Assembly: GCF_963576675.1 (NCBI RefSeq) | Contig: NC_088919.1 | Span: 40,632,501 to 40,696,500, forward strand | From: Euphorbia lathyris | Taxonomy: Eukaryota > Streptophyta > Magnoliopsida > Malpighiales > Euphorbiaceae | Direction of reading: 5' to 3' | DNA: 64,000 bases | Shown: positions 10,533-58,322 of the stretch, in pieces | Position numbering within the stretch: the stretch's first letter is position 1 | Layout: each line of letters opens with the position of its first letter | Translations under genes and position numbers: made by a program | Notes under the pieces: generated by a model | The model's input: the letters and a program-made list of their open reading frames with translations, nothing else | Told to the model about the DNA's origin: nothing | Databases searched by the model: none

Positions 10533-11498
10533 AATGAGATTAAATTCATTAATTGATTTTGATTAAATTAAATTGATATTTCTAACAAAATATGATATCT
10601 TAACAAAATTATAATAAGAAAAGTTTATAAATTAAACAATAATAATAAAACAAAATTCGTCATTAATTAGCATAAAATTTGAAATTGTACAACCAATCAT
10701 AAAAAGCATTTAACAACTTATAAAATGCACTAGCTAGTTATAGCCATAGTGTGTCAAAAAAATTACATCAAATTCATCTTAATATGTTAAGATAATTACA
10801 AAATATCAATGTATCCATAAATATTAACTTTGAACTGAAAACCTAAAAAAAAATAAAAATAATAGCAAATCAAATAAGAGAAACACTTATTATTTAAGCA
10901 AACTAGAGTCTTGTTTTTTCATGCATTATTATTAACTATTCTTTTTGCAAAGAAAACTATTCAAGTTTTCTAATGAAATGCAATCATGATTCAAAAGCCA
11001 ATTCATAGAATTACATAAAAGATATTTTACTTATATTGTTAAGCCTTGTGCAGTATCAATATATAATGTGCCTATACACTTTCTTTAGTGATGTCTAAAG
11101 TATATATCAATTTTATTCGTAACAAGATCTCATCAGCCTCTTATTAACACCAAAATTTACCTTTTATGAGTTGGCCTTCGTCAACAAGGTCAAACACATA
11201 AACTAGTAATTTCTGATAAAGTCTAATGTTCATGTGATAGCTATAAGTCCAATAATTGGTTTCACATTAGATGCCAAATTGCCTAAGAAATTATGATAAA
11301 TTCATAGCAACTTGTCTAATAGATGCTAGAACTGCAATACACTAAGGCGTCATTATAGTATCCTACTCCAGCATCCAGAAATTCACACATGAAAGGGTGC
11401 AGATGTTTTAGCCGATTGTTAGTTACTAGTCACGAAACAGGGCTTACATTCTTCAATTTATGCCCTGTGATATATAACAGCAAAACAGGGCTTACATT
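10533..11498. repeat. 966-bp block duplicated at 43433-44398
   Basis: This AT-rich block matches 43433-44398 base for base with a constant offset of 32900. I count six substitutions and no gaps (about 99.4% identity). It starts right after the LINE A tail, so the LINE seems to have landed at its left edge. The other copy keeps the uninterrupted left flank. It codes for nothing recognisable. Near its right end it contains a short internal repeat (AACAGGGCTTACATT at 11440s and 11480s). The nature of the unit is unknown; it may be part of a larger transposon such as the CACTA element that flanks the other copy. Confidence 0.85.
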
Positions 11499-32284: not shown

Positions 32285-33223
32285 GAAATGGGATTCGAAA
32301 AATTAGTTGTGTACAGTTTAAAACTTTGTAAAAACTAAGATAACATATAATGAAGTCAAAACAGAATGTCAAATGGAGCAGGACCAGACGCCTCAAATTC
32401 TTCTGCACCTATTACAATTTGCATGTTCTACAGGCTGATGGTTTCCTCCCTTCTCCAAGAAAACAAAGTGGTACTCTTCTCCCCATTTCACCAGCTTTTT
32501 TGTTTTTTTCTTAACTTGTTTGGTTACTGAGAAAATTGAATTCATCAGTTCCATAACTTCAGTTGTTTTTAGCTAGAAATCCCTTTTTTTACTAGTATGA
32601 CCATAGATTTTCGCTGGGTGATCAGCCAAATTGCTTGTCTGTGTCTGTCTGTAAGATAAATGCAAATGTGTTTGGTTGCTGGGAAAAAAATTGGGAGAAT
32701 TTTTCTGTACGGTTACAATTGCATTTCCCTCACTAGTTTAATATCTTTCTATTGATTCTTTTCCCTTTTGTGCATATGATCATGACATTCACATTTTCTT
32801 TCGGCACCACAAGGCTTAAAATTTTGTTTGGTTGCTGTGAAAATCTAGAATTCTATACGAAATTGGAATGTGCAAAGGAAATTATTGCATCTAGCTAATT
32901 TTCAAGTGTTGATCCTCTGTTTTGAGGATCTTCGGGCTGACATTTTTTTTTCTTCTTCAATTTGTTCTTGTCTTTTAGCTAGTGAAATGTTGTTCTGTTT
33001 TCATCAATTTATTTTTTGACCAAATCTTCCTTCCCCATTCACTGTTTGATAGGATTTTTCTTTGTTACATTTGAATGATTATCTCCTTGGAACAGACACA
33101 GATAGCATCAATTGTGTAGAACTCTCAATTATTGATGAAAACTGTTGGTCTATCATGATATGAGCTGACTTGATTTTTGGCCTACAGAAAATCCCAACAA
33201 AGTTTGTGAAGTTATATGGGAAA

Positions 33224-33723
33224 TGATACGGATTGAAAGCGATAAATGGAGGTTTTAGTCGTAAACCAACAAAGATGTTCTTCTCAAGCTTAACTTGAAG
33301 GAGTGAATCCCGATAACAAGGTATAAACCTTAATTCTCAAAGAGAAATGATATTTGATTGATCAAAAAGTTGTTCCATTCTTACAAAATGAGGGTATAAA
33401 TACATCCCCTAATGACCGACGCTACCCTTATTAAGGTTACAAAAAGGCATAAGACAAAGGGCAAAATGGATAGTCTGCTCAGACAAGGAGTACGACGGCG
33501 CAGGTACGGAATGTCAGACTGTCTGTTGGTCGACTTCCTGAGGAAGTAATCTTGGCGATCCGCCCATGCTCATATGTGGATACGCCTTCTGGCGTACTCC
33601 TAGATCCGCCTTGCTCGCATGTCTTGGGGATCCGCCCTTCCAGGTGCATCCTTTGTGAGCTTGATTCTTGAAGACCCGCTAGAGTCTGCGCGATCAGTGT
33701 GGCCAGTTCGGATGTCCGCATCA
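33224..33723 (-). repeat. gypsy 3' LTR
   Basis: 500 bp. On the minus strand this is the downstream LTR, and the gag-pol frame runs 124 nt into it. The polypurine tract (complement of 33724-33737) lies directly inside. Confidence 0.93.
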
Positions 33724-36700
33724 TTCTCTCCTTCTTTAAAAGAGTCCGGCACTAATTCATTTTTGTTGAGCTCTAAAGGACCATCCGATTTCCATGGGCT
33801 AAGGTCACGGATGTTGAACGCTGGTGAGACTTTGCCAAGCCATTTTGGCAATGCTATATGATAGGCATTGGCGTTGATCTTTTTGGTGATTTTATATGGC
33901 CCATACCTCCTAGGCCGAAGTTTGCTGCTTGCGGTGTTGGCGAGCCTCTCCTTGCCCAAATATACCATGACCTCATCTCCAACTTCAAACTGTAGGTCCC
34001 TGCGGTGCTCATCCGCCTTAGCCTTTAACTTCTGATTTCTATCCTCAAGAGTCTCCCTTACCTCTTGGTGCATCTGCATATAGTCCTGGGCCAGCTGGTT
34101 GGCAGTCACATTTCCCTTTGGAAGGTATGCTATATCAAGGGCATGGTTTGGGGTCTTTGTGTATACTACCTCAAATGGTGATCTCCCGGTTCCCGAATGT
34201 ACAGAACTGTTGTAGGCGAACTCAGCTTGGGCTAGAACCACATCCCACATCCGGGGCTTATCCTTGCACTTGCTACGCAGTAAGTTTCCCAGAGTTCTAT
34301 TGACCGCTTCTGTCTGTCCGTCTATCTGAGGGTGGGCAGTGGTACTAAACTTCAGAGAAGTATCAAAAAGAGCCCACAAGGTCCGCCAGAAGTGACTCAG
34401 AAACTTCGTGTCACGATCTGAGACAATAATCTTTGGTACTCCATGTAGTCTGACGACCTCCTTGAAGAATAATTTAGCAGTTGCCGATGCATCATTGGTT
34501 TTTCGGCATGGTATGAAGTGTGCCATTTTTGAGAATCGGTCAACAACCACAAAGATGGAATCCATGCCCCTCTGAGTTCTGGGTAACCCTAGGACAAAAT
34601 CCATGGACAGATCCTCCCATATAGTTTCTGGTACAGGTAGTGGTAGTTGCAAACCAGCATTAGTGGGGTGTCCCTTGGCGGTCTGGCAGATATATCATCG
34701 TTCTACTAGGTACGCCACATCTCTCCTCATCTTGGGCCAGAAATAACGGGAACTTACTGCTTCATAGGTCTTGTTTCGCCCAAAATGTCCCCCTAGGGAT
34801 CCGCCATGCAGATCGCGGATAACCTTTTCGCGGATGGAAGTGCAAGGTAAACAAAGTTGGTTACCCCTCATTAGATACTCATCCGTGATGTGATACGCTC
34901 CATCTCCATGCTGGGTTTTACATTTCTCCCAAATGCTACCGAAATCGGGATCCGCCAGGTACTCTCCTCTGATATGTTCGAAGCAGTCGGTCTCCAGATT
35001 GACAGTTTTTATTAGTGCAACCCTCCGACTCAAGGCGTCCGGCACTACGTTTTGTTTTCCCGCCTTATGGATAAGCTTATAGGGGAACTTATCTATGAAG
35101 GCGGACCATCGGGCATGCATGGAGCTTCGAAGTTGCTTCTGACTTCCTAGATACTTGAGGGCCTGATGGTCAGTGTAGAGAATGAATTCTTTCCCCACTA
35201 AGTAATGCTCCCATACTTTCAATGCCCTCACTATGGCATAAAATTCTTGATCATACGTTGCCCACTTTTGCCGTGCGTCACATAGCTTCTCACTGAAGTA
35301 CGCAATGGGCCTTTTCTCTTGCATCAAAACACCACCAATCCCAATTCCACTGGCATCACACTCAACTTCAAACAGTTTATCAAAATCAGGATACGCCAGC
35401 ACTGGCGCTGTACTCAGTTTTTCCTTGATCAAGGCGAAGCTCTCTTCTTGGGCGTCCGCCCACTCGAACCCCTTTCCTTTCTTCAAACATTCTGTCAATG
35501 GGGCCACTATGGAACTGAAGTTCTTAATGAATCTTCGATAAAATGTTGCTAGCCCATGAAAACTCCTGATGTCCCCCACATTCCTCGGAGTCGGCCATTC
35601 TCGGATGGCTCTCACATTCTCTCCATCCACTTGGACACCATCGCCACTAACCACGAATCCAAGGAAAACCAAACTTTCCATGACAAAGTCACACTTCTTG
35701 GTGTTGGCGAATAGCTGGTGTTTCCTAAACAGATCAAATACTATCTGCAAGTGCTTCTCATGATCTGCCAAGGTCTGGCTATGAATCAAAATATCATCAA
35801 AATACACAACTACGAACTTCCCAATCACCGGGCGAAACACCTGATTCATTAGCCTCATAAAAGTACTAGGGGCATTGGTCATCCCAAATGGCATCACTAA
35901 CCACTCATACAATCCATCCCTAGTCTTGAAAGCAGTCTTCCATTCATCCCCAGCTCGAATACGTATCTGGTGATAACCGCTCCTAAGATCAATCTTGGAG
36001 AAGACTTTAGATCCGCCAAGCTGGTCCAGCATATCATCCAACCTTGGAATGGGGAATTTGTACTTGATGGTGATCTTGTTGATGGCCCTACTATCAACAC
36101 ACATCCGCCAAGACCCATCCTTCTTCGGCGTAAGTAAAGCTGGAACGGCGCAAGGACTCATACTCTCCCTAACGTATCCCATCTCGATGAGTTCCTCCAC
36201 TTTCTGTCTCATGATGTCGTTCTCCTTCGGACTCACTCGATAGTGTGGGAGGCTTGGTAAGCTAGCCCCAGGCACAAGATCGATATGATGTTGGATGTCC
36301 CTCAAAGGTGGTAACCCACTGGGTAGCTCTTCCGGGAACAGATCTTGATACTCGCCAAGTAGGCGGATCACTTCATTTGGCATTTCCTTCTTGCTCCTTT
36401 GTGCTGATTCGTGATTCGCCTTTATCATGACCACATATACCATCTGACTCTCTTCGCATTCGTTGATGAATGACTTATGTGTGGGACAGACTACCAAGGT
36501 GGACTTCTCATCGGCCTTTGATTCCCTCATCATGGGTGTGAGTACGAACTTCACCCCATCCTTTATAAATCTGTAAGTATTCCTTCTTCCGACGTGGATG
36601 GCGTCATTATCAAACTGCCAGGGTCTGCCCAATAGTAGGTGGCAGGCATCCATATCGACCACGTCACAACAGACTTCATCCTTATATTCGCCGATTTCAA

Positions 36701-38249
36701 TAGGTACCTTACATCTCTGGCTTACTCTGAGTTCACCCACATCCTTGATCCATCCAACCCTGTAGGGGTCAGGATGTGCCTCCGCCAGCAATCCAAACTT
36801 CCGAACGGCGCTGCTACTCACAATGTTCTCCTGACTACCACTATCAATAATTACGTTGCATCACCCTTTGTTCACAAGGCAACGAGTCCGGAATAGTTGA
36901 TGCCTCTGATCGCCCTCTAGTCGGCTGGAGACTAATAAGCGTCTAACCACATGAATGGCGTATCTCCCTTCATCCGCCTCATCATCATCCTCTCCCAAGG
37001 GTTCACAATATACTTCATCCCCTTCTTCATAGTCTTCTTCACATCTTTCCACCATGTTAGCACTCTTCCTCCTAGGACACTCGTTGGATCTATGGCCTGG
37101 TTCATTGCACCTGAAACATTTAAAAGGCGCGGGCCTCGCATATGGATTGTTGCTCTTAGGTGGTGTAGGTACCTCCTTGTATGGCCTAGTATCTCCAATA
37201 GATCCTCTTCCCACACTGTTAACCCTGACTCCACTGGCACTCGCCACTTGCTTGCCTTTGTCATAAGACTTCACGTTATCCCTTCCTCCAGGCGTATACT
37301 CGGTAGCGGTGGATCTCAGGGCCAAATTCCTGGCATCTTGCACTCGAACCACCATCTGTGTGCCAATACGATCCTGGATGTTGTATCTCAACCCTTCTAG
37401 GTACCTAGAGGTCTTTTGGCTTTCAGTTTCAGACAAGTTGGCCCTAGCCGATAGCCTTAAGAATTATGAGGTATACTCATGGACACTTCGGGCACCTTGA
37501 GAGCATCCTCTGTAAGAGCTGTAGATATACTGCTCATAGTCCGGCGGTAAGAACCGCTCCCTCAACATCGCCTTCATTCGTAGCCAAGATCTAATCGGAT
37601 CTCAGCCCCCTCTTCTTCTTTCTTCCCTCATCTGATCCCACCAAACTGATGCGCCACCCTTCAGGCGATACGCCACCAGCCTTACTTTCCCCTCATCAGG
37701 AATCCCAGCATATTCAAAGAAGCGCTCAACTTTCGATAACCAATCTAAGAACCCCTCTATATCCAGTTCACCACCAAAAGACGGTAAGTCTATTTTTAAC
37801 TTAAAGGCATCATCCCTGTCAAAGTTTCCTAGATCTGGTTCTGCCCTAGCCATACCCACACGTCTGTTATCATTCGGGCCAACACTCCTCATATTTCTAA
37901 AGGCACCATTATCCCCAATATCCTCAAAATCATCACTATCGCTATCAGCGTTATGCACAAGGACAAAGTCAGGCCTTCTTACCTCAGGATCCCTAGGACC
38001 CATTTGTAGACGTGGTTGTTCAAGGGCTCCTTCCTTTCTCTGAGTTGATCCTCCTGCTGCGGATTGGATTAAGGACCGAACCTCCAGTTTGAAGTTTTCC
38101 AGAGAGGTGGTTAACTCCAGGAACTTTTGATCGGTCTGTCTCTGCCGCTCATGGCTGGCCTGAATCTGTTCCGCGAGGTGCTCCCTTAGCTCCTCATACC
38201 TCCGGTCACTGGTTTCCATGGAATCTTGCGGTTGTCGGGGTTGAACCAT
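33600..38249 (-). pseudogene. gypsy gag-pol, single frame with four stops
   Basis: One frame of about 1550 codons starts at ATG 38249. The order is gag core (VRLVAYRLKGGASVWW), zinc knuckle CFRCNEPGHRSNEC, aspartic protease IIDSGSQENIVS, RT with YFDDILIHS, RNase H with DASGIGIGG, and integrase with the HHCC finger and MDFVLGLP onward. Stops lie at 37602-37604 (gag), 37464-37466 (gag), 36861-36863 (just before protease) and 34695-34697 (where the first Cys of the integrase CXXC pair is expected). The C-terminus lacks a recognisable chromodomain and extends into the 3' LTR, a feature described for CRM elements. This copy cannot make its own proteins. Confidence 0.9.
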
Positions 38250-38280
38250 TGCCAAAAGAAGTTTCGGGTCAGGAAACGAT

Positions 38281-38294
38281 TGGCTCTGATACCA
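38281..38294 (-). other. gypsy primer-binding site (tRNA-iMet)
   Basis: The minus strand reads TGGTATCAGAGCCA, two bases inside the LTR at 38297. It matches the initiator Met tRNA 3' end used by many plant LTR elements. Confidence 0.9.
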
Positions 38295-38296
38295 AC

Positions 38297-38796
38297 TGAT
38301 ACGGATTGAAAGCGATAAATGGAGGTTTTAGTCGTAAACCAACAAAGATGTTCTTCTCAAGCTTAACTTGAAGGAGTGAATCCCGATAACAAGGTATAAA
38401 CCTTAATTCTCAAAGAGAAATGATATTTGATTGATCAAAAAGTTGTTCCATTCTTACAAAATGAGGGTATAAATACATCCTCTAATGACCGACGCTACCC
38501 TTATTAGGGTTACAAAAAGGCATAAGACAAAGGGCAAAATGGATAGTCTGCTCAGACAAGGAGTACGACGGCGCAGGTACGGAATGTCAGACTGTCTGTT
38601 GGTCGACTTCCTGAGGAAGTAATCTTGGCAATCCGCCCATGCTCATATGTGGATACGCCTTCTGGCGTACTCCTAGATCCGCCTTGCTCGCATGTCTTGG
38701 GGATCCGCCCTTCCAGGTGCATCCTCTGTGAGCTTGATTCTTGAAGACCCGCTAGAGTCCGCGCGATCAGTGTGGCCAGTTCGGATGTCCGCATCA
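38297..38796 (-). repeat. gypsy 5' LTR
   Basis: 500 bp, with five substitutions against the copy at 33224-33723. The boundary with the B3 exon is exact at GGAAA 38797-38801. Confidence 0.93.
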
Positions 38797-40044
38797 GGAA
38801 AGAACTCTCTTCTGCTGCTACACTTACCGGACCCAATGGCCGTAAATGGGCAGTGGAACTCGAAAATATTGACGGCAAGTTATGGTTTCATAATGGTTGG
38901 CATGAATTTGTAGACTACTACTCTATTCGTGCTGGACATCTCCTTGTTTTCGAATATGAAGGGGAGTCGAACTTTTATGTCCGTGTATTTGATTTGAGAG
39001 TTAGCGAGGTAAGCTATCCATGTCATTCATCCGGGAGTTTGCAAAAACCATGTCTTGATAACCAAGTGCAATTCAATGAGAGCGAGCTTACAACTCCTCC
39101 TTGTGAAGTTGTTTTGCCTATATTAGGAGAAGCAGGACCGGTAACCAGAAGAAGAAAACAGAGAACTGATTCTAGTAAGCTCTACAATCTCACATGGTCT
39201 TTTGTTTCTTTTTCTTCATTTGTACATGTTTCACTTAATCTGCTAGTATATTCAAGATGTAGATGAACCTAAGCAAAAAACCAGACAGAGATTCGACAAA
39301 GTATCTTGTCCGAGAATTGCTTCAGAAACTTGTACAAGGAGATGGAGAAGTGTGACAAAAGAAGAAAAAGAGGGAGCAATTCGTGTTGCTGAAATGTACA
39401 AGCCTGATAATCCCTTTTTCAAGGTCATCTTGCGACCTTCTTATGTATATAGGGGATTCCTTCTGGTGAGAACTTTAACTGGATGATTTAATGCTCTCAA
39501 TTTTGCTTTATGATCTCAATAGATTCCTGGTTCTTTTCTTGCAGCACATCCCTACAATCTTTGCTCGGAAATATTTGTCGTCATTCTCAGAAATCATCAC
39601 ACTTGAGGTTTCTAAAGGAAAAAAGTGGCCGGTCAGGTGTGTTTCTGAGAATGGGAAAGCTAAATTGTCCAAGGGGTGGACCGAATTTTTATGGGGGAAC
39701 AGATTGGAGGAAGGAGATGTCTGTGTGTTTGAGCTGATTAATATGAAGGATGCTATGAAAGTAACCATATTTCGGGTACTTGTAGTTATATCCTTTATTT
39801 TCTTTTTTTAGTGTGCCATTATAGTCCCAGCCAAAAGGTAGAGTCTTGTGTTGTGCAAATGACTGATTTCAGAGAATTTTTTTGTGCCATTCATCTTATT
39901 AAGTTGAATACAGCTCCTTTCTTTAATTATTCCTTCATTTGGTACTACAACAAGTTTATGGATTTTGATTATTTTTCAATCTAGTAAACAGCAAACCAAA
40001 AACAAACAATGCAAATATACTAAATAACAAATGTTAAATCTTGC

Positions 40045-41331
40045 TTAGTTTTTGTTCCCATTTAGAGTGGAAGAAATATGCGAGAGAAGCTGGTTATCGG
40101 TCTCGAATTTAGCCATATCTTCGTCCGTCATCGTGATCCATGCCTCTATGCATTTCCCTTCTTTCGTGTCCATGAAAGTAATAAAAACATTGTCGAGAAT
40201 TGTCGCAGTCATCACTACCCATCCGGGGTTTCCCCAACCAAAATCAATTTCATATATGGGAAAATTGCACAAACTACTTATTCCGTACTTATCCACGCCT
40301 CCTTTTGCAACTTGTGCAAATGTTTCCTTCAAAAAATTCCACTGATCATCATCACTCTGAAGTTTCTTTACTGTGTCAACATTCACACTTTTAATGGAAT
40401 CTTTTATTCTCCTTCCAATTTCATAACAATATTCATCTTCTTTAGCCATACCCGCAGGATTAGGATTATCAATCAGTGCTGCTCCCATCCATACGAAATT
40501 CCCAAATGACTGCTTTGAAATTGGCGGATCCACGAATGGCCGCAAGTTTATTGCATTAACCACCAACATCCTGTTCTTTTTACCAGATTCTTTCGCCTGA
40601 GAAATCGTGGCAGTCATCCGACTCAATAAGAAAACAGATAAAGCCTGCATTCGCGACAACTTCTCACCATCGCCGCTATATTTATCTTTAAGATATGATA
40701 AGGTAAAACCATCAAACACAAACGATTTAGTAATATAGTTTTCCTTAAGGTTCAATTGGCGGAAAGATGGAAGCTGAACCGATGGGAGGAAGTTCACTAA
40801 GCGTATCCCCTCGGGCAATCGCGGCCCAATTTTTTAAAAATATTAACCCCGATAAACCATCTCCAAGCATATGTGGCATGGCGACTGAAAGAGCTAATCC
40901 GCCACAGTTGAAGTAAGTAATCTGACACACAGATCCATATTGATATATACCTCTGTGAGGTTGCAGAGGACAGAACTTATATGGGTGGTTATGATATTGG
41001 TTTCGGTTTTGGAGAATATGGGAGAGTTGACAATTAGCTTTTGCCTCAATGAAGAGAGCGCCTTCGTCGTTGCAATCAGCGGAGAGTAGTTGCTAATGCG
41101 GCCGGCGAGAGGGTAGAATATGGTTAAAGCTTTTGATAATGATCTCTTCAACAAGGTGCATCTTTCTACATTGGTGAGTAAGTTGGATTTATGATAGAAG
41201 AAACTGAAAGGAGGCGAAACTGGATATTGAAATTGATCAAGAAATGAGAATTGGAGTTTGGAGAGATGATGAGGTGTTGGAGAAGATGGTTTGATTAATT
41301 CTTTTGAAATCAATTCTACTTCAATCCCCAT
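40045..41331 (-). pseudogene. BAHD acyltransferase pseudogene (vinorine synthase-like clade)
   Basis: Intron-free coding sequence on the minus strand starts at ATG 41331 (MGIEVELISKELIKPSSPTP) and ends in IEAWITMTDEDMAKFE and a stop at 40045. The BAHD signatures are present: HMLGD (HXXXD catalytic motif, near 40870) and DFGWG (structural motif, near 40240). Enzymes of the family move acyl groups from CoA to alcohols or amines in the cytosol. Two frameshifts break it, one near 41085 just after LAGRISNY, and one near 40750 after SIFPP. No tidy intron explains them. The total length (~430 codons) is normal for the family, so the gene was complete until recently. Its substrate cannot be told. Confidence 0.82.
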
Positions 41332-41412
41332 TTTCTTCTTCTTCAAATAAGGTGAAGATTAATTGGTAGATAATTGTATTTATATACACATTAAGTGTTT
41401 TTATTTATTTAT

Positions 41413-43432: not shown

Positions 43433-44398
43433 AATGAGATTATATTCATTAATTGATTTTGATTAAATTAAATTGATATTTCTAACAAAATATGATATCT
43501 TAACAAAATTATAATAAAAAAAGTTTATAAATTAAACAATAATAATAAAACAAAATTCGTCATTAATTAGCATAAAATTTGAAATTGTACAACCAATCAT
43601 AAAAAGCATTTAACAACTTATAAAATGCACTAGCTAGTTATAGCCATAGTGTGTCAAAAAAATTACATCAAATTCATCTTAATATGTTAAGATAATTACA
43701 AAATATCAATGTGTCCATAAATATTAACTTTGAACTGAAAACCTAAAAAAAAATAAAAATAATAGCAAATCAAATAAGAGAAACACTTATTATTTAAGCA
43801 AACTAGAGTCTTGTTTTTTCATGCATTATTATTAACTATTCTTTTTGCAAAGAAAACTATTCAAGTTTTCTAATGAAATGCAATCATGATTCAAAAGCCA
43901 ATTCATAGAATTACATAAAAGATATTTTACTTATATTGTTAAGCCTTGTGCAGTATCAGTATATAATGTGCCTATACACTTTCTTTAGTGATGTCTAAAG
44001 TATATATCAATTTTATTCGTAACAAGATCTCATCAGCCTCTTATTAAGACCAAAATTTACCTTTTATGAGTTGGCCTTCGTCAACAAGGTCAAACACATA
44101 AACTAGTAATTTCTGATAAAGTCTAATGTTCATGTGATAGCTATAAGTCCAATAATTGGTTTCACATTAGATGCCAAATTGCCTAAGAAATTATGATAAA
44201 TTCATAGCAACTTGTCTAATAGATGCTAGAACTGCAATACACTAAGGCGTCATTATAGTATCCTACTCCAGCATCCAGAAATTCACACATGAAAGGGTAC
44301 AGATGTTTTAGCCGATTGTTAGTTACTAGTCACGAAACAGGGCTTACATTCTTCAATTTATGCCCTGTGATATATAACAGCAAAACAGGGCTTACATT
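43433..44398. repeat. 966-bp block, second copy of 10533-11498
   Basis: The match is gap-free at offset 32900 with six substitutions. Here the left flank is CACTA-like sequence with no LINE, so this copy shows the uninterrupted arrangement. The right flank (GGATTGAACTTCGGGG) differs from the first copy. Confidence 0.85.
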
Positions 44399-46114: not shown

Positions 46115-46119
46115 AAAGT

Positions 46120-46863
46120 TGATAACACGGGGAAAAATCCTTGATCAGAGCACGTCCCTGTGAGGCGCCGTTGGGATCGGTCGGGGACACTCCGATGCCA
46201 AAGTCAGTAAGGAAGATCAAGAGAGCAAACTGAATTGACAAGGAATAAGTGAATGTGTGTACCTTGATAGCCTAGGGATGTAGGCTATATATAGTTGGGG
46301 AATTCGTAACCTCTAGGTAACTAGAAAGTCTCCATTAATGCTCATTTAATGGCGGTTACAAGTTACTCTTAACCTGGTGGTTTAAGACTATTAATGATTC
46401 ATTTAATGATCTTTATGGCCGAGTTGGCGGTTAGCCGTTACTGTGATGAATCAGGTGAAAGAGGAGATTCGCCTCATAGGTTCGCCAGCGGATCTTACTG
46501 AGCTGAACCGTGGAGATCCGCCATCTGGTTCTTCTTGCGGCGTTCTCAAGGTGAATATCCCTTTTTGCTCCTTGGGATAATATTCTTTGATCCGTCAAGG
46601 CATATGTACGCTCTCCTTGAGAGATATGGCGGGTCTCTGCTACTTGCTCTCATTGGGCGTATCTCGCCATGGTCCACGTGGCGTGGCATAGTGCTAGAAA
46701 CTCCTTCTTTTTCCTCATTATTTGCATATTCTCCCCTGCATTAATTATCATTAATGCCACATTAATCATGTATAAATATCTCTTTTAGAAGGAATAATGG
46801 TTTGCCATTATTTCTATTAATTTTCCCTTATTCTTTATTCAAGAATAATTTGGTTTGTTATCA
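46120..46863 (-). repeat. Tat-like 3' LTR, 744 bp
   Basis: It pairs with 50800-51541. The two differ by about five substitutions and 2 bp in length. Confidence 0.88.
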
Positions 46864-47734
46864 GAAGCCCCCCCTAAAGGTATAAAAAGCTCTTTAGGGC
46901 TGTCTAATCGTATTCCATGCTATTGATCTTTTAAGTGTTCAAACTTGTCATGAATTTTCCGAAGGTGTCAATCTTGTTATGAATTTTCCGAAGGTTTCAA
47001 ACTTGTTATGTCTCGAGGTAGGTGGCCAACCATATCCCTAGAAGCTTATGATAAGCTTCATGGATTTCTTTCCCTAGGATCCAATATATGGAGATTTTTA
47101 CGTTGTCTGTGAACTCTGACCGTTTATAAGGAGATTCGCCTTAGAGATCCGCCCGTGGATCTCATATGGCTTAGTCTTGATGATCAACTTGCTACCTATC
47201 TTTGAGTGATCTGTACAAGGCAACTTAGAGTAGGTGGCCAGCCATACCCTTGTATGAAAACCTTTGTGAAGGCTTGAACCTTGGTGAAGGTTTGTGTGCT
47301 TGGTATTCCTTTTGAGGGAATCAAGCTACCGTAAGCGTTTGATCTGCTTCCTCTCTTTGAGGTGGATCAATCTGCCATAGGTGTAGAAAACTCCTCTTTT
47401 TGAGAGGAGTTTTGAAGGATGTAAAGATCTCACGTCTGAGAAATGTTTTAATCCTGGCGGTGATCAGGGCTTGATCCGCCGTGTTTTATTTTTCTATCTT
47501 GGAGGAAAGTGGACCCGCCCTAGATGGGGCCATTTGTTCCTACCGCATAGGATTATGATTCGCCTTAGGGACTTCTTTTCTTCAGTTCTGCCATATTGAG
47601 GAGAATGACCCGCCCTTAGGGATCAGTAAGAATGATCAGCCATTTAGGGACCTTTGTGCATTTTGTGAAGGCGAGACTTTGTTATTTCTATGATGAAGAT
47701 GCGGATTCATTAATTTGATGAAAACGAGACTTCA

Positions 47735-47880
47735 TTAATTGGATAAAGACGAGGCTTTATGAATTGGATGAAGACGAGGCTTCATTACTTGGAGATGAAG
47801 ACGAGGCTTCATTACTTGGAGATGAAGACGAGGCTTCATTACTTGGAGATGAAGACGAGGCTTCATTATTTGGAGATGAA
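47735..47880. repeat. 27-bp tandem repeat, four to five units
   Basis: Units of GATGAAGACGAGGCTTCATT plus TACTTGGA are nearly identical. The 27-bp length keeps a reading frame on the minus strand (repeats of LQVMKPRLH), but this is likely incidental. It lies in the 3' region of the Tat-like element. Confidence 0.8.
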
Positions 47881-48186
47881 TCCCTTTGCTTTCCAGAACT
47901 ATTTTTACTAATGCATTATATCTTTTAGCAAGTAATTTTCTAGAATCTGGTTTACGATTTCTCCGATTGTTTAGGGTAGGTGGCCAGCCGTACCCCAATG
48001 TGTGAACCTTTGTGAAGGTTTAGAAGCTGTTCTATTCCTTCTAGAGGAAGTAAAGCTGCCCAGGGGATTAACTTGCTACCTATCTTTGAGGTGAAGCGAT
48101 CCGCCCGTAGGACTTGTGAACCCTTCTTTGGGAAGGGAGTGAAAGAGTGTAAAGTCCTTGCGTCCAAGGAATGTTTTAACTCGTTT

Positions 48187-48235
48187 ATGGTGTCCGACCG
48201 AATGGTGTCCGACCGAATGGTGTCCGACCGAATGG
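48187..48235. repeat. 15-bp tandem repeat, three units
   Basis: Three copies of GTGTCCGACCGAATG in the same 3' region. Confidence 0.85.
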
Positions 48236-48644
48236 TGATCATCTAAAGATGGATCCGCCCATGAGAGTGTTCTCCTATCTTTGAGGAGAAAGTTGAGGGT
48301 GTAATGATCTCATGTTTGAGACGATTTTAACCCGCTTTTGATGGTGGTCAATCCTTTTCCTGTCTTTGAGGAGAGAGTTGAGCTTATTTGAAAGCTCCTG
48401 AGGGTCTGTGCTTCTTACCTTTATGGAAAGGGGATCCGCCCGTGATGGGATCAATTGTCCTATCTTTGAGGTAATTGATCCACCTGTGGAACTTATGATT
48501 CGCCAGCCACCGGACGTATATCAGCACTAAAAGCTAGGCAAGTGAATATAAGAAGTATGGCGAGAAAGAATAAATTATAAAATATAGGATACTATAACAG
48601 TTTAATGCACATATAAGAATATGTAAAAATACTGATTTTAGGCC

Positions 48645-48999
48645 CATGGTTCCGTCTTTTCTGAGCAACTAGAACCACATCCTTAATGATGTTTAACTTA
48701 TGAGTGATCATATCTGGGCTTATTCCTGTACGGATCTCATTCTCCTATGCAAATAGGCTTTCAGACTCAATGATGTTTAATCCTTTGGCGATTCGTACCC
48801 GCTTTCCACCAGCAATAAGGAGCGTTTCTGTGTCGCCCAAAGCTGTAGTGACAAGTTTATATTTCTCACATTCGTCCTCTTTAGATTGTGGGCGAATTGA
48901 TAGTGACGCTGAGTAGGTCTCTTGAACCGTCTTTTGGTTCCCGCTAATCATTACTCCTCCTTTGTTGGTGAGAATGTACCTATGGTGATGATATTGCAA
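48645..48999 (-). pseudogene. Tat-like pol remnant (protease-RT linker)
   Basis: The minus-strand frame contains NQKTVQETYSASLS and, after a stop, GISPDMITHKLNI and QKRRNHGP. These are the conserved lead-in to the RT domain in Tat/Athila-type elements. The RT itself is deleted to the left. Confidence 0.55.
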
Positions 49000-49364
49000 G
49001 AACTGCCCGTGTCTACCATTACCCGCCTCATTTCATCTTCCATCCTTCAATTGTCAACGCATCTGTATGTGGAGAGATTACTGGACCTGTTTCTGCAAAA
49101 GGAGCAATGGAGGGATGCTTTATCTAGAGCGGATATTTTTTGCTTTTTCCACGGGTGGCTGATACCCTGGTCCATCCGCCATGACATTAATGACACTTTT
49201 GAATTTATTTTTGGGATCTGTCTTCTGCTTGTCATCTTGTTATTTGTTATTCTGGACAAAGCTATCTAGTTTGCCAGCTCCCAGCAAGCTTCAGTGTGGT
49301 GGCCAACCAAAGGGTGGTAATAATCTTAGATTGGGTACCCCCTCAAATTTGACCACTGGAATAT

Positions 49365-49850
49365 TTATATTACTTGTACTAAAGTCCTGTTTATGGAGGA
49401 AGAACCCCGATTTTTGTCTTTCTCACGATCTCGATTGTTAGATTCGCCTTTGGTTTTATGTGATGGAGATAACGATTCGCGGCGTATGTCATCTACCTCC
49501 CTGAATGCTTTGCATCGTTCAATTAGATTCGCCATATTGCGGGGTTTTCTCCGGATCAGATCCTCCTGTAAGCTTTTACATGTTGTATTTTTGGCCAATG
49601 CTTCTGCAGCTGATCCACCGCCGCCTGAACCGCCTATATGTAATCGGTCATGACCTCCTTGGTTTCCTACGGGGACATGACCAATGTCTCCTGGTCGGGA
49701 GGATGATGGTGGTGGGCCGGTACTCCGGGGTGTATCAATAGGCCTCTTACTACGTCAGCGTATTGGAGAGGGAGGTGACCTACCTCTGCGAGAAGAGCCC
49801 TGTCTTCGTGGCGAAGATGTTTTACGATGCTTCTCATTCGAAACTGACAT
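49365..49850 (-). pseudogene. Tat-like gag remnant
   Basis: The frame starts at ATG 49850 (MSVSNEKHRK). It is Arg/Ser/Pro/Gly-rich and has one in-frame TGA after PPSPIR. It then jumps to a gag C-terminal region (KSLQEDLIRRKPRNMANLIE, a pattern seen after the gag core) ending at 49365. The gag core domain is absent, and the deletion seems to join N- and C-terminal parts in frame. Confidence 0.6.
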
Positions 49851-50799
49851 TTGCACAGTTTTGTAGTTAGCTCAAGACATGAAAGTTTTGTTTATCCAAT
49901 TTGGCAATTCATCAACTCATAATGGCCTTAATAGTTAGGGACAGTTACATGATGATCACAAATTGATTTAATATGTTCAATTCTCTTACGTCGGTAAAAG
50001 AAATTCTAATAATGTCAGATAAACAGTTTTTATATGAATAAACATCCTTGTAAAAAAGGGAATGAAATAACCGTTTGACAAAACAATATTCAAAAATATG
50101 AATTTTTGACATTAAAAGTACTAAATAGGAGAAAAGCCATATATAGATGGTGAATTGTACAAGGAAAACCAAATATGATTTTTTGCAATTTCTTCTAATA
50201 GTTATATGCATGTTCACCCAAAAGACCGACTAGATCTAAATCCTTTGCAATTACATGAGCAATTTTATGATATTTTAATATCAAATGACAAAATCACATT
50301 GAATGGATGATTTTTCCTTTTGTAAATCCCAAGATCACGGGTCTTATACATGCGTTTGTACTGGTTCAATGATAATATCATATTACACTTGTCATGCATA
50401 AGAATATGAGGGCATAGTAAGCATGCAAGGTTTAATGAAAGATTTGCGTCTATGACTTCACCTTTTACAATTTATTAGATTTATCATAATAACATGTAAC
50501 TATATTCATAGCACTTTATAAGAGTGAGGGATCTCAATTTTCATTAATAAAAAATGGAATAAGAAATGGGAGGAAACTTATCTTTTTCATCATAAAATTC
50601 CAGATTTAATGTAGAAAACTCTTTCCCACCAATATATGGAGAACCGTATCTTTGGATAGATTTGTTGTACTGATTGAGCCAAAGTTGGAGATTGTGATTT
50701 CTATTCTGTTGACTCCATTGTTTTGTTCTTTGTGAAACTCTATACAATCAAGATTTTGTGATCTTCTGTTTGTTAGAGATCCACGATCACCGCACCAAT

Positions 50800-51541
50800 T
50801 GATAACACGGGGAAAAATCCTTGATCAGAGCACGTCCCTGTGAGGCGCCGTTGGGATCGGCCGGGGACACTCCGATGCCAAAGTCAGTAAGGAAGATCAA
50901 GAGAGCAAACTGAATTGACAAGGAATAAGTGAATGTGTGTACCTTGATAGCCTAGGGATGTAGGCTATATATAGTTGGGGAATTCGTAACCTCTAGGTAA
51001 CTAGAAAGTCTCCATTAATGCTCATTTAATGGCGGTTACAAGTTACTCTTAACCTGGTGGTTTAAAACTATTAATGATTCATTTAATGATCTTTATAGCC
51101 GAGTTGGCGGTTAGCCGTTACTGTGATGAATCAGGTGAAAGAGGAGATTCGCCTCATAGGTTCGCCAGCGGATCTCACTGAGCTGAACCGTGGAGATCCG
51201 CCATCTGGTTCTTCTTGCGGCGTTCTCAAGGTGAATATCCTTTTGGTCCTTGGGATAATATTCTTTGATCCGTCAAGGCATATGTACGCTCTCCTTGAGA
51301 GATATGGCGGGTCTCTGCTACTTGCTCTCATTGGGCGTATCTCGCCATGGTCCACGTGGCGTGGCATAGTGCTAGAAACTCCTTCTTTTTCCTCATTATT
51401 TGCATATTCTCCCCTGCATTAATTATCATTAATGCCACATTAATCATGTATAAATATCTCTTTTAGAAGGAATAATGGTTTGCCATTATTTCTATTAATT
51501 TTCCCTTATTCTTTATTCAAGAATAATTTGGTTTGTTATCA
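50800..51541 (-). repeat. Tat-like 5' LTR, 742 bp
   Basis: It pairs with 46120-46863. Just inside its left edge the minus strand reads TTGGTGCGGTGATCGTGG, a candidate primer-binding site that does not fit initiator Met tRNA; I cannot assign the tRNA. Confidence 0.88.
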
Positions 51542-52760: not shown

Positions 52761-53339
52761 TCAATTCTCTTGCTCAGTTTCTTTGGTAATTGCAGCTACT
52801 TCACTCACTTTGACCTTAGCTCCACAGCAGCCCTTTTTACCATGTCTCTCAACTTCAACTGTTCTTGATGATGTCTTCCCTATCTCTTCCCTCCTCTCCA
52901 GAAATTCTGTATTCTCCTTCCAAACTTCTCCATTAGAATAAACCTCTTTTTTCCATATTGGTACAGATGCCTTCAGCTCATCAATAAGAAATTTACAAGC
53001 ATCAAGAGCATCTCCCCGGTGAACAGCTGAAACTGCCACGAATACGCTAGTTTCTCCAACTGGTACGCAGCCTAGGCGGTGTGCAACAGCAATTGAGTGA
53101 ATGTTCCAAGATAATCTAGCAGAAGAGCATATGGATTTGAGCTCACGTATTGCCATTGGTATATATGCTTCGTATCTTAGCTCTATCACTGTCTTACCCT
53201 CAAACGTGTCTCTCGTAGTGCCTGAAAATGTTGCTACTGCACCTGCCTGTGGAGCACTAACATAGTTTATGAATCGAGCAAGATCAATAGGGTTATTTTC
53301 CTCTAAGATTTCAACCAGAGATTTTTCTTCATCCGCCAT
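52761..53339 (-). CDS. CNX6: molybdopterin synthase catalytic (large) subunit, CNX6/MoaE
   Basis: This is an intact single-exon gene of 192 codons from ATG 53339. It is the MoaE-family subunit that, with the small CNX7/MoaD subunit carrying a C-terminal thiocarboxylate, puts two sulfurs on precursor Z to make molybdopterin in the cytosol. Nitrate reductase, xanthine dehydrogenase and aldehyde oxidase depend on it. Conserved segments in order are YVSAPQAGAVATFSGTTRD (residues ~26-44), ELRYEAYIPMA, VAHRLGCVPVGE (~85-96), and AVHRGDALDACKFLIDELK then PIWKKE (~105-130), which holds the catalytic lysines. The length is close to Arabidopsis CNX6 (198). A plant-type Cys-containing tail (GCCGAKVKV) follows. 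It is the only clearly functional host gene in the window. Confidence 0.96.
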   Translation of the reverse strand: MADEEKSLVEILEENNPIDLARFINYVSAPQAGAVATFSGTTRDTFEGKTVIELRYEAYIPMAIRELKSICSSARLSWNIHSIAVAHRLGCVPVGETSVFVAVSAVHRGDALDACKFLIDELKASVPIWKKEVYSNGEVWKENTEFLERREEIGKTSSRTVEVERHGKKGCCGAKVKVSEVAAITKETEQEN

Positions 53340-53735
53340 CTTTGTTCAGATACCTTCCTCACAAACTTGAGTTATGTTTAAATAGTCCTCTGTGACTGCC
53401 TTTACTTAGGGCAGATACTATGCTATACACCACAATTTTGTATATTTGCGATTGTTAATCTGTCCAAAAAACATACCTATATCATGATATGTTTCAAAAA
53501 GAAAAAAACATTCATATAAATGTTTCCACGGATCTAATTGGATACTTGATTCTTATGGAATAAAAGGGGGATCCTTTTTTACCTACAAATGCCTAATGTG
53601 AATAATATCAATGGCATAGTTCATCCAATAGAAAGAAATTAGAAAAATTGAAGACAGATAGCAAACCAATCAATAGCTATGAAACAAAACAGATAGCAAA
53701 AACAATCAATAGAGAATAGAAGATAAAACCAACAT
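53340..53735. other. CNX6 upstream region
   Basis: No gene. It is either the CNX6 promoter or the 3' part of a 5'UTR intron. It ends at the TATTC target duplication of the LTR element, 397 bp from the CNX6 start codon. Confidence 0.45.
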
Positions 53736-53740
53736 TATTC

Positions 53741-54107
53741 TGTCACGATTATTAGAGTAATTAAGGGGAGTACTTTAGGTATTATTTAGGTTGTTAATTA
53801 TCTTGTTAATTAGTGTTTGATTGCTCAAATAGTTGTTATTTTAGAATGGTTTTACAGCTGTAAAAGCTGTACTATTCCAGCTGTAGGGATTTGTAACTGC
53901 TGCCACATCAGCAGTGGTTATTCCTATATAGGGTCATCCTTTTGTTATGTACGGCATTATCAGAAAATTATCAATGAAGTTTATCTTCCTTCCTTCTTTC
54001 TCTCTTCTTCTTCCCTAATTCTCTGTTCTACCTTATTTTCTATTCTTCTGCTTCCTTAAACCCTATTTCTTCTCTAATCTCTACAGTCAGAAATTCTAAT
54101 CCTGACA
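53741..54107 (+). repeat. 5' LTR, 367 bp
   Basis: TGTCA and TGACA at the ends form a perfect terminal inverted repeat. A TATATA lies at 53935-53940. It looks identical to 57951-58317, including the incidental 80-codon frame in each. Confidence 0.93.
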
Positions 54108-54108
54108 T

Positions 54109-54120
54109 TGGTATCAGAGA
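54109..54120 (+). other. primer-binding site (tRNA-iMet type)
   Basis: TGGTATCAGAGA starts one base after the 5' LTR. It matches initiator Met tRNA except for the last base. Confidence 0.85.
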
Positions 54121-54136
54121 AAGCTTTCCTCCGCCC

Positions 54137-54416
54137 ATGGAAGACTTTGAACATCAAATAGAACGTTACCGCTTGGAGTTTCACGAGCGGCAACAACGGT
54201 TTGATGAACAATGGGAACTGCTTCGCAAGAAGCAACAAGAGAAAGATGAACAAGTCTGCAAATCATTATCAAACTTGGTTCAATCGATTCGAGAATTTCG
54301 AAGAGTTACAGATCCTTCTTCAGTTGCCCCCCAACTGTTTGATGAAATTCCTGAGAGGAAATTGGAGCTGGCAGATTCCTATTTGCAAGATAAAACAGAT
54401 GCACCCCAACTGTTTG
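54137..54416 (+). CDS. gag-like leader ORF of the Pack element, cut by RTE fragment
   Basis: The frame starts at ATG 54137, 16 nt after the primer-binding site. It encodes a Gln/Glu/Arg-rich coiled-coil-like segment ([20 protein letters not shown]) followed by two APQLFD motifs. It is in the position of gag but I do not recognise a gag domain. At ~54414 it runs into antisense RTE sequence. The frame is probably continued in concept after 55553, where a [11 protein letters not shown] motif echoes the earlier APQLFD/ADSY pattern. Confidence 0.5.
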
Positions 54417-55553
54417 ATTCTCTCATTTTATTCTCAATAGATGTGACCCCTACTTTTGTCCTAATTATTTCATTACGCACCCGGTCCTTTCTCGTGTGAC
54501 CACACATCCATCTCAACATACGCATCTCCGCCACCGACATCTTATGGATGTGGCAGTGTTTCACTGCCCAACACTCCGTACCATATAACAATGCTGGTCT
54601 AATTGCCGTCCGGTAGAATTTTCCCTTCAATCTATTAGGCATGCCGGGATCACAAAGGAAACCCGTAGCACTCTTCCACTTCGACCAACCAGCTTTAATC
54701 CTATGAGCAACATCTCCATCTACTTCTCCATCCGTTTGGATAATAGATCCTAAATACCGGAAGCAATCCGAGGCCTGAACAACTCTCCCATCTAGGATGA
54801 TTGTCCCTGCCTCCCTACTCCTACGGCCGCTAAACTTACACTCCAAATATTCTGTCTTACTTCGACTCAACTTAAAGCCTCTAGATTCTAGAGTTTGCCT
54901 CCATAGTTCCAACTTCATCTCCACTCCTTCTTTCGTCTCCTCAACCAACACAATATCATCTGCAAACAGCATGCACCATGGTATACCATCTTGAAGTGAA
55001 CTTGTTAGTTCATCCATAACGATGGCAAAAAGAAATGGGCTTAGTGCGGAACCTTGATGCACTCCAATCGTAATAGGAAACTCTTCAATCTTCCCAACAC
55101 TAGTACGTACACTCGTGCATACTCCCTCATACATGTCCTTTATGATGTCAATATATTTCCGCGAAATGCCTTTCCTTATCAAGGCCCACCAAAGTACTTC
55201 CCTTGGTACCTTATCATATGCTTTCTCCAAGTCAATGAAAACCATATGCAAGTCTTTCTTCTTATTTCGATAGTGCTCCATTAATTGTCTCATTAGATGG
55301 ATGGCTTCCATAGTTGATCTTCCCGGCATAAAGCCAAACTGGTTTTCCGAGATCTTCACCGTCCTCCTTAGCCTTTGTTCAATCACTCGCTCCCAAAGTT
55401 TCATAGTGTGACTCATTAATTTGATTCCCCGATAGTTGGCACAATCTTGGACATCGCCTTTGTTCTTATACAAAGGGATTAAGGTACTTTTCCTCCATTG
55501 TGATGGCATCTTATTGTTTCTCCAAATTTTGTTGAAGAACGTCGTCAACCATT
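54414..55553 (-). pseudogene. RTE-clade LINE reverse transcriptase fragment, antisense
   Basis: About 380 codons on the minus strand form an open RTE-type [68 protein letters not shown] and [10 protein letters not shown], then the thumb region to [15 protein letters not shown]. The fragment begins inside the RT domain (LTTFFNKIW) and stops before the usual C-terminus and 3' tail. Thus neither a LINE 5' nor 3' end is present, which does not fit ordinary LINE insertion. There is no internal stop. It lies opposite to the carrier element. Confidence 0.88.
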
Positions 55554-56330
55554 AACCAGTGGAAATAGTGGAGCACACTACTATAGGTCAGTTTGACAAT
55601 CTTACTGACTCTTATTTCATTAACCAGTGGAAACCTAAAAACCGATATGAATCAAGATTATATCAAACCATAGATTTCTATAAGCCTGCTACGTTTCAGA
55701 ACATTCATCTCAAGGATGTGAGTGAGGCTCCTAAGCCCAATCCTACATTCATATCTCCCCTGGTTCCAAAGCAATGGCCCCAAACTAACCATTCCTACCA
55801 CAAAACCTCAACCCAAAAGACCCCAAACAACCTAGAACCTCACCCCAGTTTCATATCACCAATCATCACTTCACCTTGGTCCCAAAACACCCCAAACAAT
55901 CTGAAACCTAACCAAATCCTTAGAAATCCAATGACTACATATTCCTCAACTGTTTCTGGCATGAATTCAGCAATAAATGGTGTTATTCATGAAAAAAATC
56001 GACGTCTGCCAACAGAGAAGTATCGCAAAAGAAATCAAGCTATTCCATCCCGTGTAAAGGGTGCTATTGTGATTGGGAGGTATGAGTTTCAGCCCCAACA
56101 AATTAAGACAAGAGAGCCGCAACAACAGCTACAAATGCAGCAGTTGCAACGAAGGGACCCTAACCATCCACCTCTTACCGGGTCTATCAATACAAGAGAT
56201 CCTAAGGACATCAAAAGGAAGACCAACTTGGACCCATCTCAGAAGAGTTCACATATGGATTCTTCATGCATCTATGCACAATCAATTTTACATTCCAAGT
56301 CTGGATTATGTGACATCCCAGTTAATTGTT

Positions 56331-56366
56331 ACATTCTTGGGGACAAGAATGGCTTAAAGGGGGGAG
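56331..56366 (+). repeat. internal copy of the PPT-adjacent sequence
   Basis: ACATTCTTGGGGACAAGAAT followed by GGCTTAAAGGGGGGAG repeats, with few changes, the sequence at 57912-57947 that leads into the 3' LTR. The UFSP2/PCS cargo lies between the two copies. Confidence 0.85.
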
Positions 56367-56428
56367 CAATTCCATTGGTGAAGCTAATGGATGAGGTCTC
56401 AGGAGCCGTTAGCATCTTAGTGATTCCA

Positions 56429-56692
56429 TGGTTCATACTTCAACACTATATCTTTATTGAAGTTTCTTTTCACAGGGAAATACATCAAGCACTAATGGAG
56501 TTAGGGGATAAAGACCCTTATTTTGTTGGTTTGACTTCCAAGATCATAAATGCAAGATTAGGAGCTGAGCTTTCTAAAAAATGTAGAGAGCTGGCCATGC
56601 ACTTTGAGAATCAAGTGATTAGTGGTGGTGTGCTTGCATATACCCTTTTGGGCGTTGATTATGGTGAAGGTAGTGGAGGTTGTGCACTCCTA
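56429..56692 (+). pseudogene. UFM1-specific protease (UFSP2-like) exon fragment
   Basis: The translation contains [36 protein letters not shown] and [15 protein letters not shown]. These are hallmark stretches of plant UFSP2, which matures UFM1 and removes it from targets. The usual segment after FVG (an exon including GAIELSFVLDKLLGVSC) is missing, as is the GTP triplet before the Gly-Gly motif. The catalytic Cys region and the DPHYTG motif are absent, so it has no protease activity. No introns interrupt it. Family assignment is from memory of the conserved motifs. Confidence 0.7.
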
Positions 56693-56888
56693 AAAGTTGA
56701 GCTGCGTCGACGATGGAATGGTGCAATGCTTCCTTATTGGGTTTTTGACATGACAATGAGGAGTGTTGGAAATGCTCTTCGGGAACCTTTTGCTGATCCG
56801 TTGTATCTCCAATACATATGGAGTCTTGATTATATCGTTGCCTTGCTCGTTGCACTTAATGGCTCTTCAATGGATAGGACTTACTTAG

Positions 56889-57726
56889 GTATCACCATTG
56901 GGAAGCTTGTTTGTTTAACTCACTGTGCTGGAGCATTCCCAACAGATCAGAGCACTATTGATGATTTCTGTCAACATGTCCTTAAATGTTCTACATCTGA
57001 TGACTGTCATTTGTTGTCATTTTATCACGGAGGGACATTAAAACAAACAGGATTGAGTCATTTTTCACCTATTAGTGGTTACCATGCTGGAAGAGACATG
57101 ACATTGACTTTGAATGTTGCACGGTTCAAGTACCCTCCACATTGTGTTCTTGTACAACTTTTTTGGCAAGCTATGCATAAAGTTGATGAGGCAACTATGC
57201 AACACAGAGGACTTATGCTTATATCAAGACCTCACGTTGAGTCGGGGCTGCTTAATACCATGAGCTGCGGACATGAGAGTTGGGCTAGTGTTGCAAAGTA
57301 TTTAGTGGATGAGGGTCCTCTTCTCTTAAAGTTAGGAGACGTGAAAGACATCTCCAACTTGTTCTAAGTAGTTTTTACATCTCTCCCATCATATTTTGGA
57401 GAATTTATTACGAGGGTTGCAGAAGTTCGGAGACAAGAAGATAGTGGTATAAGTGTAAGCCAAGAGGAAAGGGGAAAGCTTGCTATCAAGGAACAAATGT
57501 TAAAACAGGTGCAAGAAGCTAGACTTTTTAAACATGCAGCTGGATTTCTGTCTTCAGCAAATTCATGTTGCAGTGACATGCCAATTCTGAGTCAAGAAGA
57601 TGATCTTCCTCCTATTGTTGCTAGCGTCTGTTGTCAAGGGGCAAAGATTTTGGCAGGGAAGTCTGGCTCTTCAAGTCACTGCTGTAGTAAAACGTGCAAG
57701 AGATGCATAACGACCAATGGAGACAA
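56889..57726 (+). pseudogene. phytochelatin synthase fragment (inactive)
   Basis: It corresponds roughly to the second half of the catalytic domain and part of the Cys-rich C-terminal domain of plant PCS, the enzyme that makes metal-binding phytochelatins from glutathione. Key segments are [64 protein letters not shown] and CCQGAKIL. The catalytic His (family H162) is kept at 57059-57061. The catalytic Asp (family D180), exactly 18 residues later, is Asn (57113-57115). The region with the catalytic Cys56 is not included. TAA at 57365 splits it. No introns remain, so it was taken from spliced RNA. Confidence 0.9.
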
Positions 57727-57937
57727 ACACGTTCCTTTGCTTGGGTTTCATACTACTTGTTTTGGGCTCTTTCTCATCTCACAGATCATTATATGGCTCT
57801 CCTATGGGAAGAAGATTTATAACAAATCATCATGGTTGTTATGGAAATCCTGCCTTTGTTGGTGTGTCGAATCCTCGATGTCACTTGGAAGGACTGGTCT
57901 CCAAACTTTCTACATTCTTGGGGACAAGAATGTTCTT

Positions 57938-57950
57938 AAGGAGGGGGTAT
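57938..57950 (+). other. polypurine tract
   Basis: AAGGAGGGGGTAT lies immediately left of the 3' LTR and is the plus-strand primer site. Confidence 0.85.
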
Positions 57951-58317
57951 TGTCACGATTATTAGAGTAATTAAGGGGAGTACTTTAGGTATTATTTAGG
58001 TTGTTAATTATCTTGTTAATTAGTGTTTGATTGCTCAAATAGTTGTTATTTTAGAATGGTTTTACAGCTGTAAAAGCTGTACTATTCCAGCTGTAGGGAT
58101 TTGTAACTGCTGCCACATCAGCAGTGGTTATTCCTATATAGGGTCATCCTTTTGTTATGTACGGCATTATCAGAAAATTATCAATGAAGTTTATCTTCCT
58201 TCCTTCTTTCTCTCTTCTTCTTCCCTAATTCTCTGTTCTACCTTATTTTCTATTCTTCTGCTTCCTTAAACCCTATTTCTTCTCTAATCTCTACAGTCAG
58301 AAATTCTAATCCTGACA
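57951..58317 (+). repeat. 3' LTR, 367 bp
   Basis: It looks identical to 53741-54107. Confidence 0.93.
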
Positions 58318-58322
58318 TATTC

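Follow-up and report, generated by a model that had tools for sequence, protein, structure and literature searches.

Introduction

Host-gene fragments inside long terminal repeat (LTR) elements have been described in maize and soybean. In maize Bs1, segments of three host genes are joined in a hybrid frame inside an LTR element, according to the accessible part of a 2026 review (PMC13317346). The soybean element GmaRetroS15, a terminal-repeat retrotransposon in miniature (TRIM), carries pieces from three host genes, all of them exon-only, and has 5-bp target-site duplications (TSDs), as stated in the available excerpt of PMC4717578. In these excerpts, Bs1 and GmaRetroS15, with three genes each, are the only documented precedents for the capture of several mRNAs by one LTR element. 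A maize survey lists 425 gene-carrying LTR elements and, under its conditions and in its accessible portion, none in which fragments of two or more standard nuclear genes are combined (PMC2774510). For genes captured by LTR elements across whole genomes, the excerpts available give totals and not families with several multi-gene cargos. Here, we analyzed a stretch of 64,000 nucleotides from Euphorbia lathyris (NC_088919.1, positions 40,632,501 to 40,696,500; “the window,” in whose coordinates positions are given). At 53741-58317, it contains an LTR retrotransposon with pieces of four host genes, namely LEUNIG_HOMOLOG, UFSP2, Pumilio, and phytochelatin synthase (PCS).

Like Bs1, this locus shows host-gene segments fused inside an LTR element, and it shares exon-only gene pieces and 5-bp TSDs with GmaRetroS15. 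Unlike Bs1 as the review excerpt presents it, the Euphorbia element combines four host genes with a piece of a long interspersed nuclear element (LINE), exists in eight near-identical and several older copies, and has relatives with other multi-gene cargos. Host-gene fragments within LTR elements are also common to the maize set, where, in the portion accessible, single standard nuclear genes are carried (PMC2774510). Pack-MULEs and gene-carrying Helitrons resemble the present family in that their members bear different host-gene pieces, but there the capture takes place at the DNA level, whereas LTRs and spliced cargo are found here; Pack-MULEs carry introns too (PMC4717578, same excerpt). 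Measured against these excerpts, the presence of four host genes within a single element is new here, as is a family that has several different multi-gene cargos; among the titles and abstract beginnings listed in searches of an open-licence library, none describes such a family. We consider it very probable that the element is a non-autonomous LTR retrotransposon which depends on trans-supplied proteins and was built by repeated capture at the RNA level.

Structure of the element

The stretch 53741-58317 is a complete, non-autonomous LTR retrotransposon without replication genes. It is flanked by the TSD TATTC (53736..53740 on the left, 58318-58322 on the right). The 5′ LTR (53741..54107) and the 3′ LTR (57951..58317) measure 367 bp each, start with TG, end with CA, and are identical at 367 of 367 aligned bases. 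At the inner LTR borders lie the primer binding site TGGTATCAGAG (54109..54119) and a G-rich polypurine tract (PPT), which ends at 57950 and forms the region 57911..57950 together with the pre-PPT sequence. From the motif, we assume a primer site of the tRNA-Met type. Unless a minus strand is mentioned, all features of the element are on the plus strand. The TSD, the LTRs, the primer site, and the PPT had been pointed out in an earlier note on this DNA, and all of them could be read in the sequence.

The primer site is followed by a leader open reading frame (ORF; MEDFEHQ..., 54137..54418), which is common to elements with other cargos. In the sister copies L009 and L014, its frame continues into the cargo. 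In the window copy, an antisense LINE reverse-transcriptase piece (54419..55549, minus strand) interrupts this continuity; it is delimited by Pfam, ORFs, and comparison of copies. Next comes a 16-bp filler, CATTAACCAGTGGAAA (55550..55565), which occurs a second time 68 bp downstream (55618-55633). The chimeric frame in the ORF listing comprises 603 codons (55556..57367), ends with TAA at 57365-57367, and is followed by 200 further codons. No gag-pol genes of the element's own were found in the ORF listing or with Pfam, the sole match being the antisense LINE reverse transcriptase; this agrees with the earlier note, which had seen no replication proteins. The element thus has none of the pol domains whose order and phylogeny distinguish Ty3/gypsy from Ty1/copia.

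TRIMs have very short LTRs and a total length of about 1 kb. With LTRs of 367 bp and copies of about 3.5 kb, the element does not belong to this class. It differs likewise from the gene-carrying TRIMs of 1,172-1,449 bp listed in the accessible part of PMC4717578, also by its long leader-cargo frame. Pack-MULEs have terminal inverted repeats, Helitrons have rolling-circle ends, and both capture genes at the DNA level; with its LTRs, 5-bp TSDs, and spliced cargo, the element belongs to neither class. Exon-only pieces of at least two host genes in one element, as in Bs1, are present, with three introns checked.

Cargo and donor genes

LEUNIG_HOMOLOG: The first piece consists of two blocks with an internal deletion (56091..56310, the end being approximate as it derives from a protein alignment). 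When residues 1-272 of the main frame were used as a protein query, at least 40 proteins were retrieved, namely the window's own and 39 others. The named proteins among the 39 matches listed are LEUNIG-type or unspecified transcriptional corepressors, and the rest are hypothetical or unnamed. The Jatropha LEUNIG_HOMOLOG protein P0125 aligns to the cargo in two blocks.

UFSP2: Four donor exon stretches are joined in the piece 56423..56700, which matches PDB entry 3oqc (E 4e-12). Between the LEUNIG_HOMOLOG and UFSP2 pieces lies a second, internal copy of the pre-PPT/PPT region (56330..56364, 86% identity to 57911-57945), here called the scar. A fragment 3′ of the scar, presumably armadillo-like, was left out of the host-gene count.

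Pumilio: The piece 56767..56891 contains an NABP domain (Pfam PF07990, E 3e-5). With the UFSP2-Pumilio stretch as query, the protein search gave only the window's own protein.

PCS: The piece 56888..57739 overlaps the Pumilio piece by 4 bp (GGTA) and includes the TAA. It matches PF05023 before this stop (E 1e-28) and PF09328 after it (E 1e-46).

The earlier note had described a cargo of two genes in an almost open frame. Its UFSP2 and PCS assignments and the spliced state of both pieces hold, while LEUNIG_HOMOLOG, Pumilio, the LINE piece, the sister copies, and the relatives with other cargos had escaped it.

A genome search with 56060-57730 gave 44 matches, element copies included, and short donor pieces were then retrieved. 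The donor loci lie on contigs C5 (LEUNIG_HOMOLOG and the PCS exons), C1 (UFSP2 exons), and C6 (Pumilio); weaker candidates in the same search are on C4, C8, and C1. The window copy is 87-92% identical to the LEUNIG_HOMOLOG donor, 81-93% to UFSP2, 81% to Pumilio, and 83-89% to PCS, i.e., the cargo pieces are 7-19% diverged overall. Two PCS introns (between pieces a and b and between c and d) and the first UFSP2 intron are absent from the cargo, and all three have GT...AG ends in the donor. From PCS piece b to c, 37 cargo bases have no placement as that donor stretch was not retrieved, and the later UFSP2 pieces are separated by small gaps, so internal skips exist. With three checked introns missing, the cargo reads as spliced host-gene pieces. 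As the donors are on different contigs and contain introns that the cargo lacks, nothing was found of what the earlier note had named as speaking against it (clearly differing LTRs, cargo without match to UFSP2 or PCS, or intronless adjacent parental genes).

Sister copies and age of the chimera

We searched the genome with the LTR-leader region and scored the best 40 of 262 candidates, in which the two LTRs of one element count separately. Among these, the same chimera occurs at seven further insertions, each at its own site, which answers the earlier call for a search for sister copies. The 5-bp TSD is exact in seven of the eight copies, including the window copy, and has one mismatch in L009. 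Element positions 671-2352 are deleted in L012. Small gaps not counted, the two LTRs are identical in L010, L013, and the window copy; in the remaining copies, they diverge by no more than 0.8%. The eight copies form two clades about 2% apart. Private to the window copy are three substitutions, a 12-bp deletion, and the LINE piece, which replaces 58 bp. A single copy with identical LTRs and such a complex interior might suggest an assembly artefact. However, the eight sites of the chimera are spread over five contigs and differ in their flanks and TSDs, and we regard the chance of an artefact as negligible.

Older copies of the chimera are L016, L017, and L025; the LTRs of L025 differ by 9.6% over 291 aligned bases, and a further fragment of the PCS end is present in L039. 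We had considered L017, without PCS, as an ancestral form. We abandoned this idea: with their common 5′ flank, L016 and L017 are apparently one insertion that was later duplicated. The chimeric frame of L014, from the young clade, is 9.7% diverged from L016 and 11.2% from L025, which gives the chimera a greater age than would be concluded from the identical LTRs. Judged by these divergences, it is the last jump alone that is young, while the capture is old. The very recent jump that the earlier note had proposed is thus borne out by the LTRs, but not its suggestion that capture may still be active: the same cargo occurs in the 10-11% diverged L016 and L025, and cargo and donors are 7-19% apart.

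Related elements with other cargos

Further elements share the leader and the pre-PPT region and have a different cargo in between. With the four-gene cargo as group A, they were sorted into groups B to G, and for L034, L035, L020, and L021, the membership derives from ORF listings.

Group B (L018, L020, L021) carries pyruvate decarboxylase (tested in L018) and a piece that we presume to be insulinase-like; for this name, which also applies to parts of groups F and G, PDB searches gave no match. Group C (L024, L028, L035) contains DGDG synthase (L024, L028), H+-pyrophosphatase, and a PTPase-domain piece (L028), and L028 and L035 have common flanks. Group D (L027, L034, L036) contains mRNA-capping enzyme and RCC1 (L027, L036) and a LepA-like piece (L027), in addition to a weak AAA_12 match below its cut-off. 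Group E is L040 (331-3332 in element orientation, 3.0 kb), with the TSD GAAAC and a single 773-codon frame that runs from the leader through RCC1 repeats. Its LTRs are 99.75% identical, and it is a second young capture element. Group F (L038) combines P450 with pieces common to A and B, and group G (L037) has a piece common to B and F.

The modules form a mosaic: the LEUNIG-scar stretch is present in A and F, the presumed insulinase-like piece in B, F, and G, and RCC1 in D and E. Ten further places in the genome match the cargo around the LEUNIG-scar stretch with 79-84% identity; on this similarity, we take them to be more family members.

Proposed mechanism of capture

We propose that proteins supplied in trans would mobilize the element. 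During reverse transcription, the enzyme would switch from the element RNA to co-packaged spliced host mRNAs and then back. In this way, cDNA pieces would be placed between a fixed 5′ module (LTR, primer binding site, leader ORF) and a fixed 3′ module (PPT, LTR). The LEUNIG_HOMOLOG-UFSP2-Pumilio-PCS chimera would have formed before the split from the older L016 and L025 and would later have been amplified as a passenger. The latest round of amplification would have led to the eight near-identical copies, three of them with identical LTRs, and the window copy would also have gained its LINE piece, either through a late template switch or in the repair of a break.

The scar may mark the point where the enzyme re-entered the element RNA after a host mRNA, a proposal made from its position and its similarity to the true pre-PPT region. 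All six group A copies in which it was looked for contain it, that of L011 in a shortened form, and so do L038 and L040. The pre-PPT matches in L028 and L035 are the true 3′ ends of these elements.

Alternatively, the pieces could be separate processed pseudogenes made by a LINE that landed in the element, without any LTR template switching. A very young and abundant LINE does exist in the genome. However, neither poly-A nor target duplications were seen around the pieces, which come from gene interiors and all lie on the same strand and in the same frame; the Pumilio-PCS overlap is merely 4 bp, and several cargo groups occupy the same zone between leader and PPT. Hence, we judge this origin very unlikely and prefer capture by template switching.

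Four points weigh against the proposed explanation as a whole. The internal pre-PPT copy was not seen in L018, L020, L021, L027, L034, and L036, so the scar is not a general mark of capture. Splicing and donors were compared in group A alone out of groups A to G. The antisense orientation of the LINE piece is not expected from simple minus-strand switching onto a LINE mRNA. Finally, no autonomous partner is among the fetched loci. L039 had been a candidate for this role and was dropped, as a nested insertion appears to be the source of its gypsy genes.

Beyond this single chimera, the family might be a dedicated capture lineage, an idea that we put forward tentatively and hold to be somewhat less probable than its opposite. 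One LTR family would then repeatedly take several spliced host mRNAs into a fixed leader-PPT zone, be able to leave PPT scars, swap cargo modules between subfamilies, keep the leader in frame with the cargo, and still acquire sequence, as with the LINE piece. If true, it would be the RNA-level counterpart of Pack-MULEs. A single genome here offers donor genes, several different multi-gene cargos, and, for at least one cargo, copies of different ages. This makes it possible to measure the order and rate of RNA-level exon shuffling, its junction rules, and its fate. Small RNAs directed against the donor genes might also arise from the copies.

Origin of the LINE piece

The LINE piece (Pfam RVT_1, E 2e-36) is absent from all six sisters in which this can be judged, L012 being deleted in that region. 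Among the best 40 of 1256 candidate genome matches, the window's own included, all are about 100% identical over the full 1131 bases, and two genomic LINE copies extend past both ends of the window piece. Thus, the source LINE looks very young and abundant in the genome. The left join shows a one-base overlap, and the right join an overlap of CATT followed by the filler.

The piece is the only fresh acquisition of the element, and DNA repair may be its origin. A double-strand break in the already inserted copy could have been repaired with filler DNA, as the antisense orientation, the loss of 58 bp and the nearby 12-bp deletion in the window copy alone, the local 16-bp filler, and the 1-4 bp overlaps at the joins suggest. 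The same signs are compatible with a template switch before insertion, and, since the LTRs are identical, the event was very late in either case. We give break repair and a late template switch roughly equal chances.

Fate of the chimeric frame

The chimeric frame is open over 864 and 866 codons in L009 and L014, respectively. On the stem of the eight-copy clade, there are 62 substitutions (20/21/21 at the three codon positions), one in-frame 12-bp deletion, and no stop. The ratio of non-synonymous to synonymous divergence (dN/dS) is 0.68 between the young clades (L014 versus L009), and the pooled ratio of the corresponding proportions (pN/pS) in the leader is 0.78. These values could point to a selected or domesticated gene with a protein useful to the element or the host, as has been proposed for Bs1. 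However, 2.1 stops would be expected on the stem, and their absence (P 0.11) is not significant alone. With L009 as reference, differences are spread evenly over the codon positions (89/88/79 for L016, 98/109/78 for L025), and dN/dS is 1.06 against L016 and 0.83 against L025. In the window copy, the frame is interrupted by the stop and the LINE piece. The PCS piece lacks Cys56 and has Asn in place of Asp180 in the alignment, residues which we assume to be catalytic in PCS. Hence, domestication appears unlikely.

By module, the lowest dN/dS is 0.44 (Pumilio) and the highest 1.68 (PCS), both against L016, if a value of 1.85 for a partial leader alignment against L025 is set aside. L016 contains nine stops and L025 six, with several frameshifts in both. 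A 1-bp indel near codons 847-855, 3′ of the PCS piece, allows no placement on the tree. Codon positions and dN/dS give no clear sign of amino-acid selection on the chimeric frame. We read the cargo as a passenger, and the keeping of the frame is at most suggestive.

Genomic neighborhood

An ORF of the MoaE type lies at 52761-53345 on the minus strand (PF02391, E 6e-40) and likely encodes a subunit of molybdopterin synthase. A distance of 402 bp separates its first ATG (53339) from the element, which is located upstream on the opposite strand and could affect the promoter. At 46119-51540, direct repeats with 99-100% identity, about 4.68 kb apart, are consistent with another young LTR element. 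A gypsy-type element at 33221-38593 (minus strand) has end repeats with 99% identity and contains reverse transcriptase, RNase H, and integrase zinc-finger domains; it does not show the pre-PPT motif. Two ORFs with B3 domains are located at 38745-41358, as is a gene of the transferase family (PF02458) that is split across two ORFs. Two 300-nt direct copies (10533-10832 and 43433-43732), 32.9 kb apart, are 99% identical.

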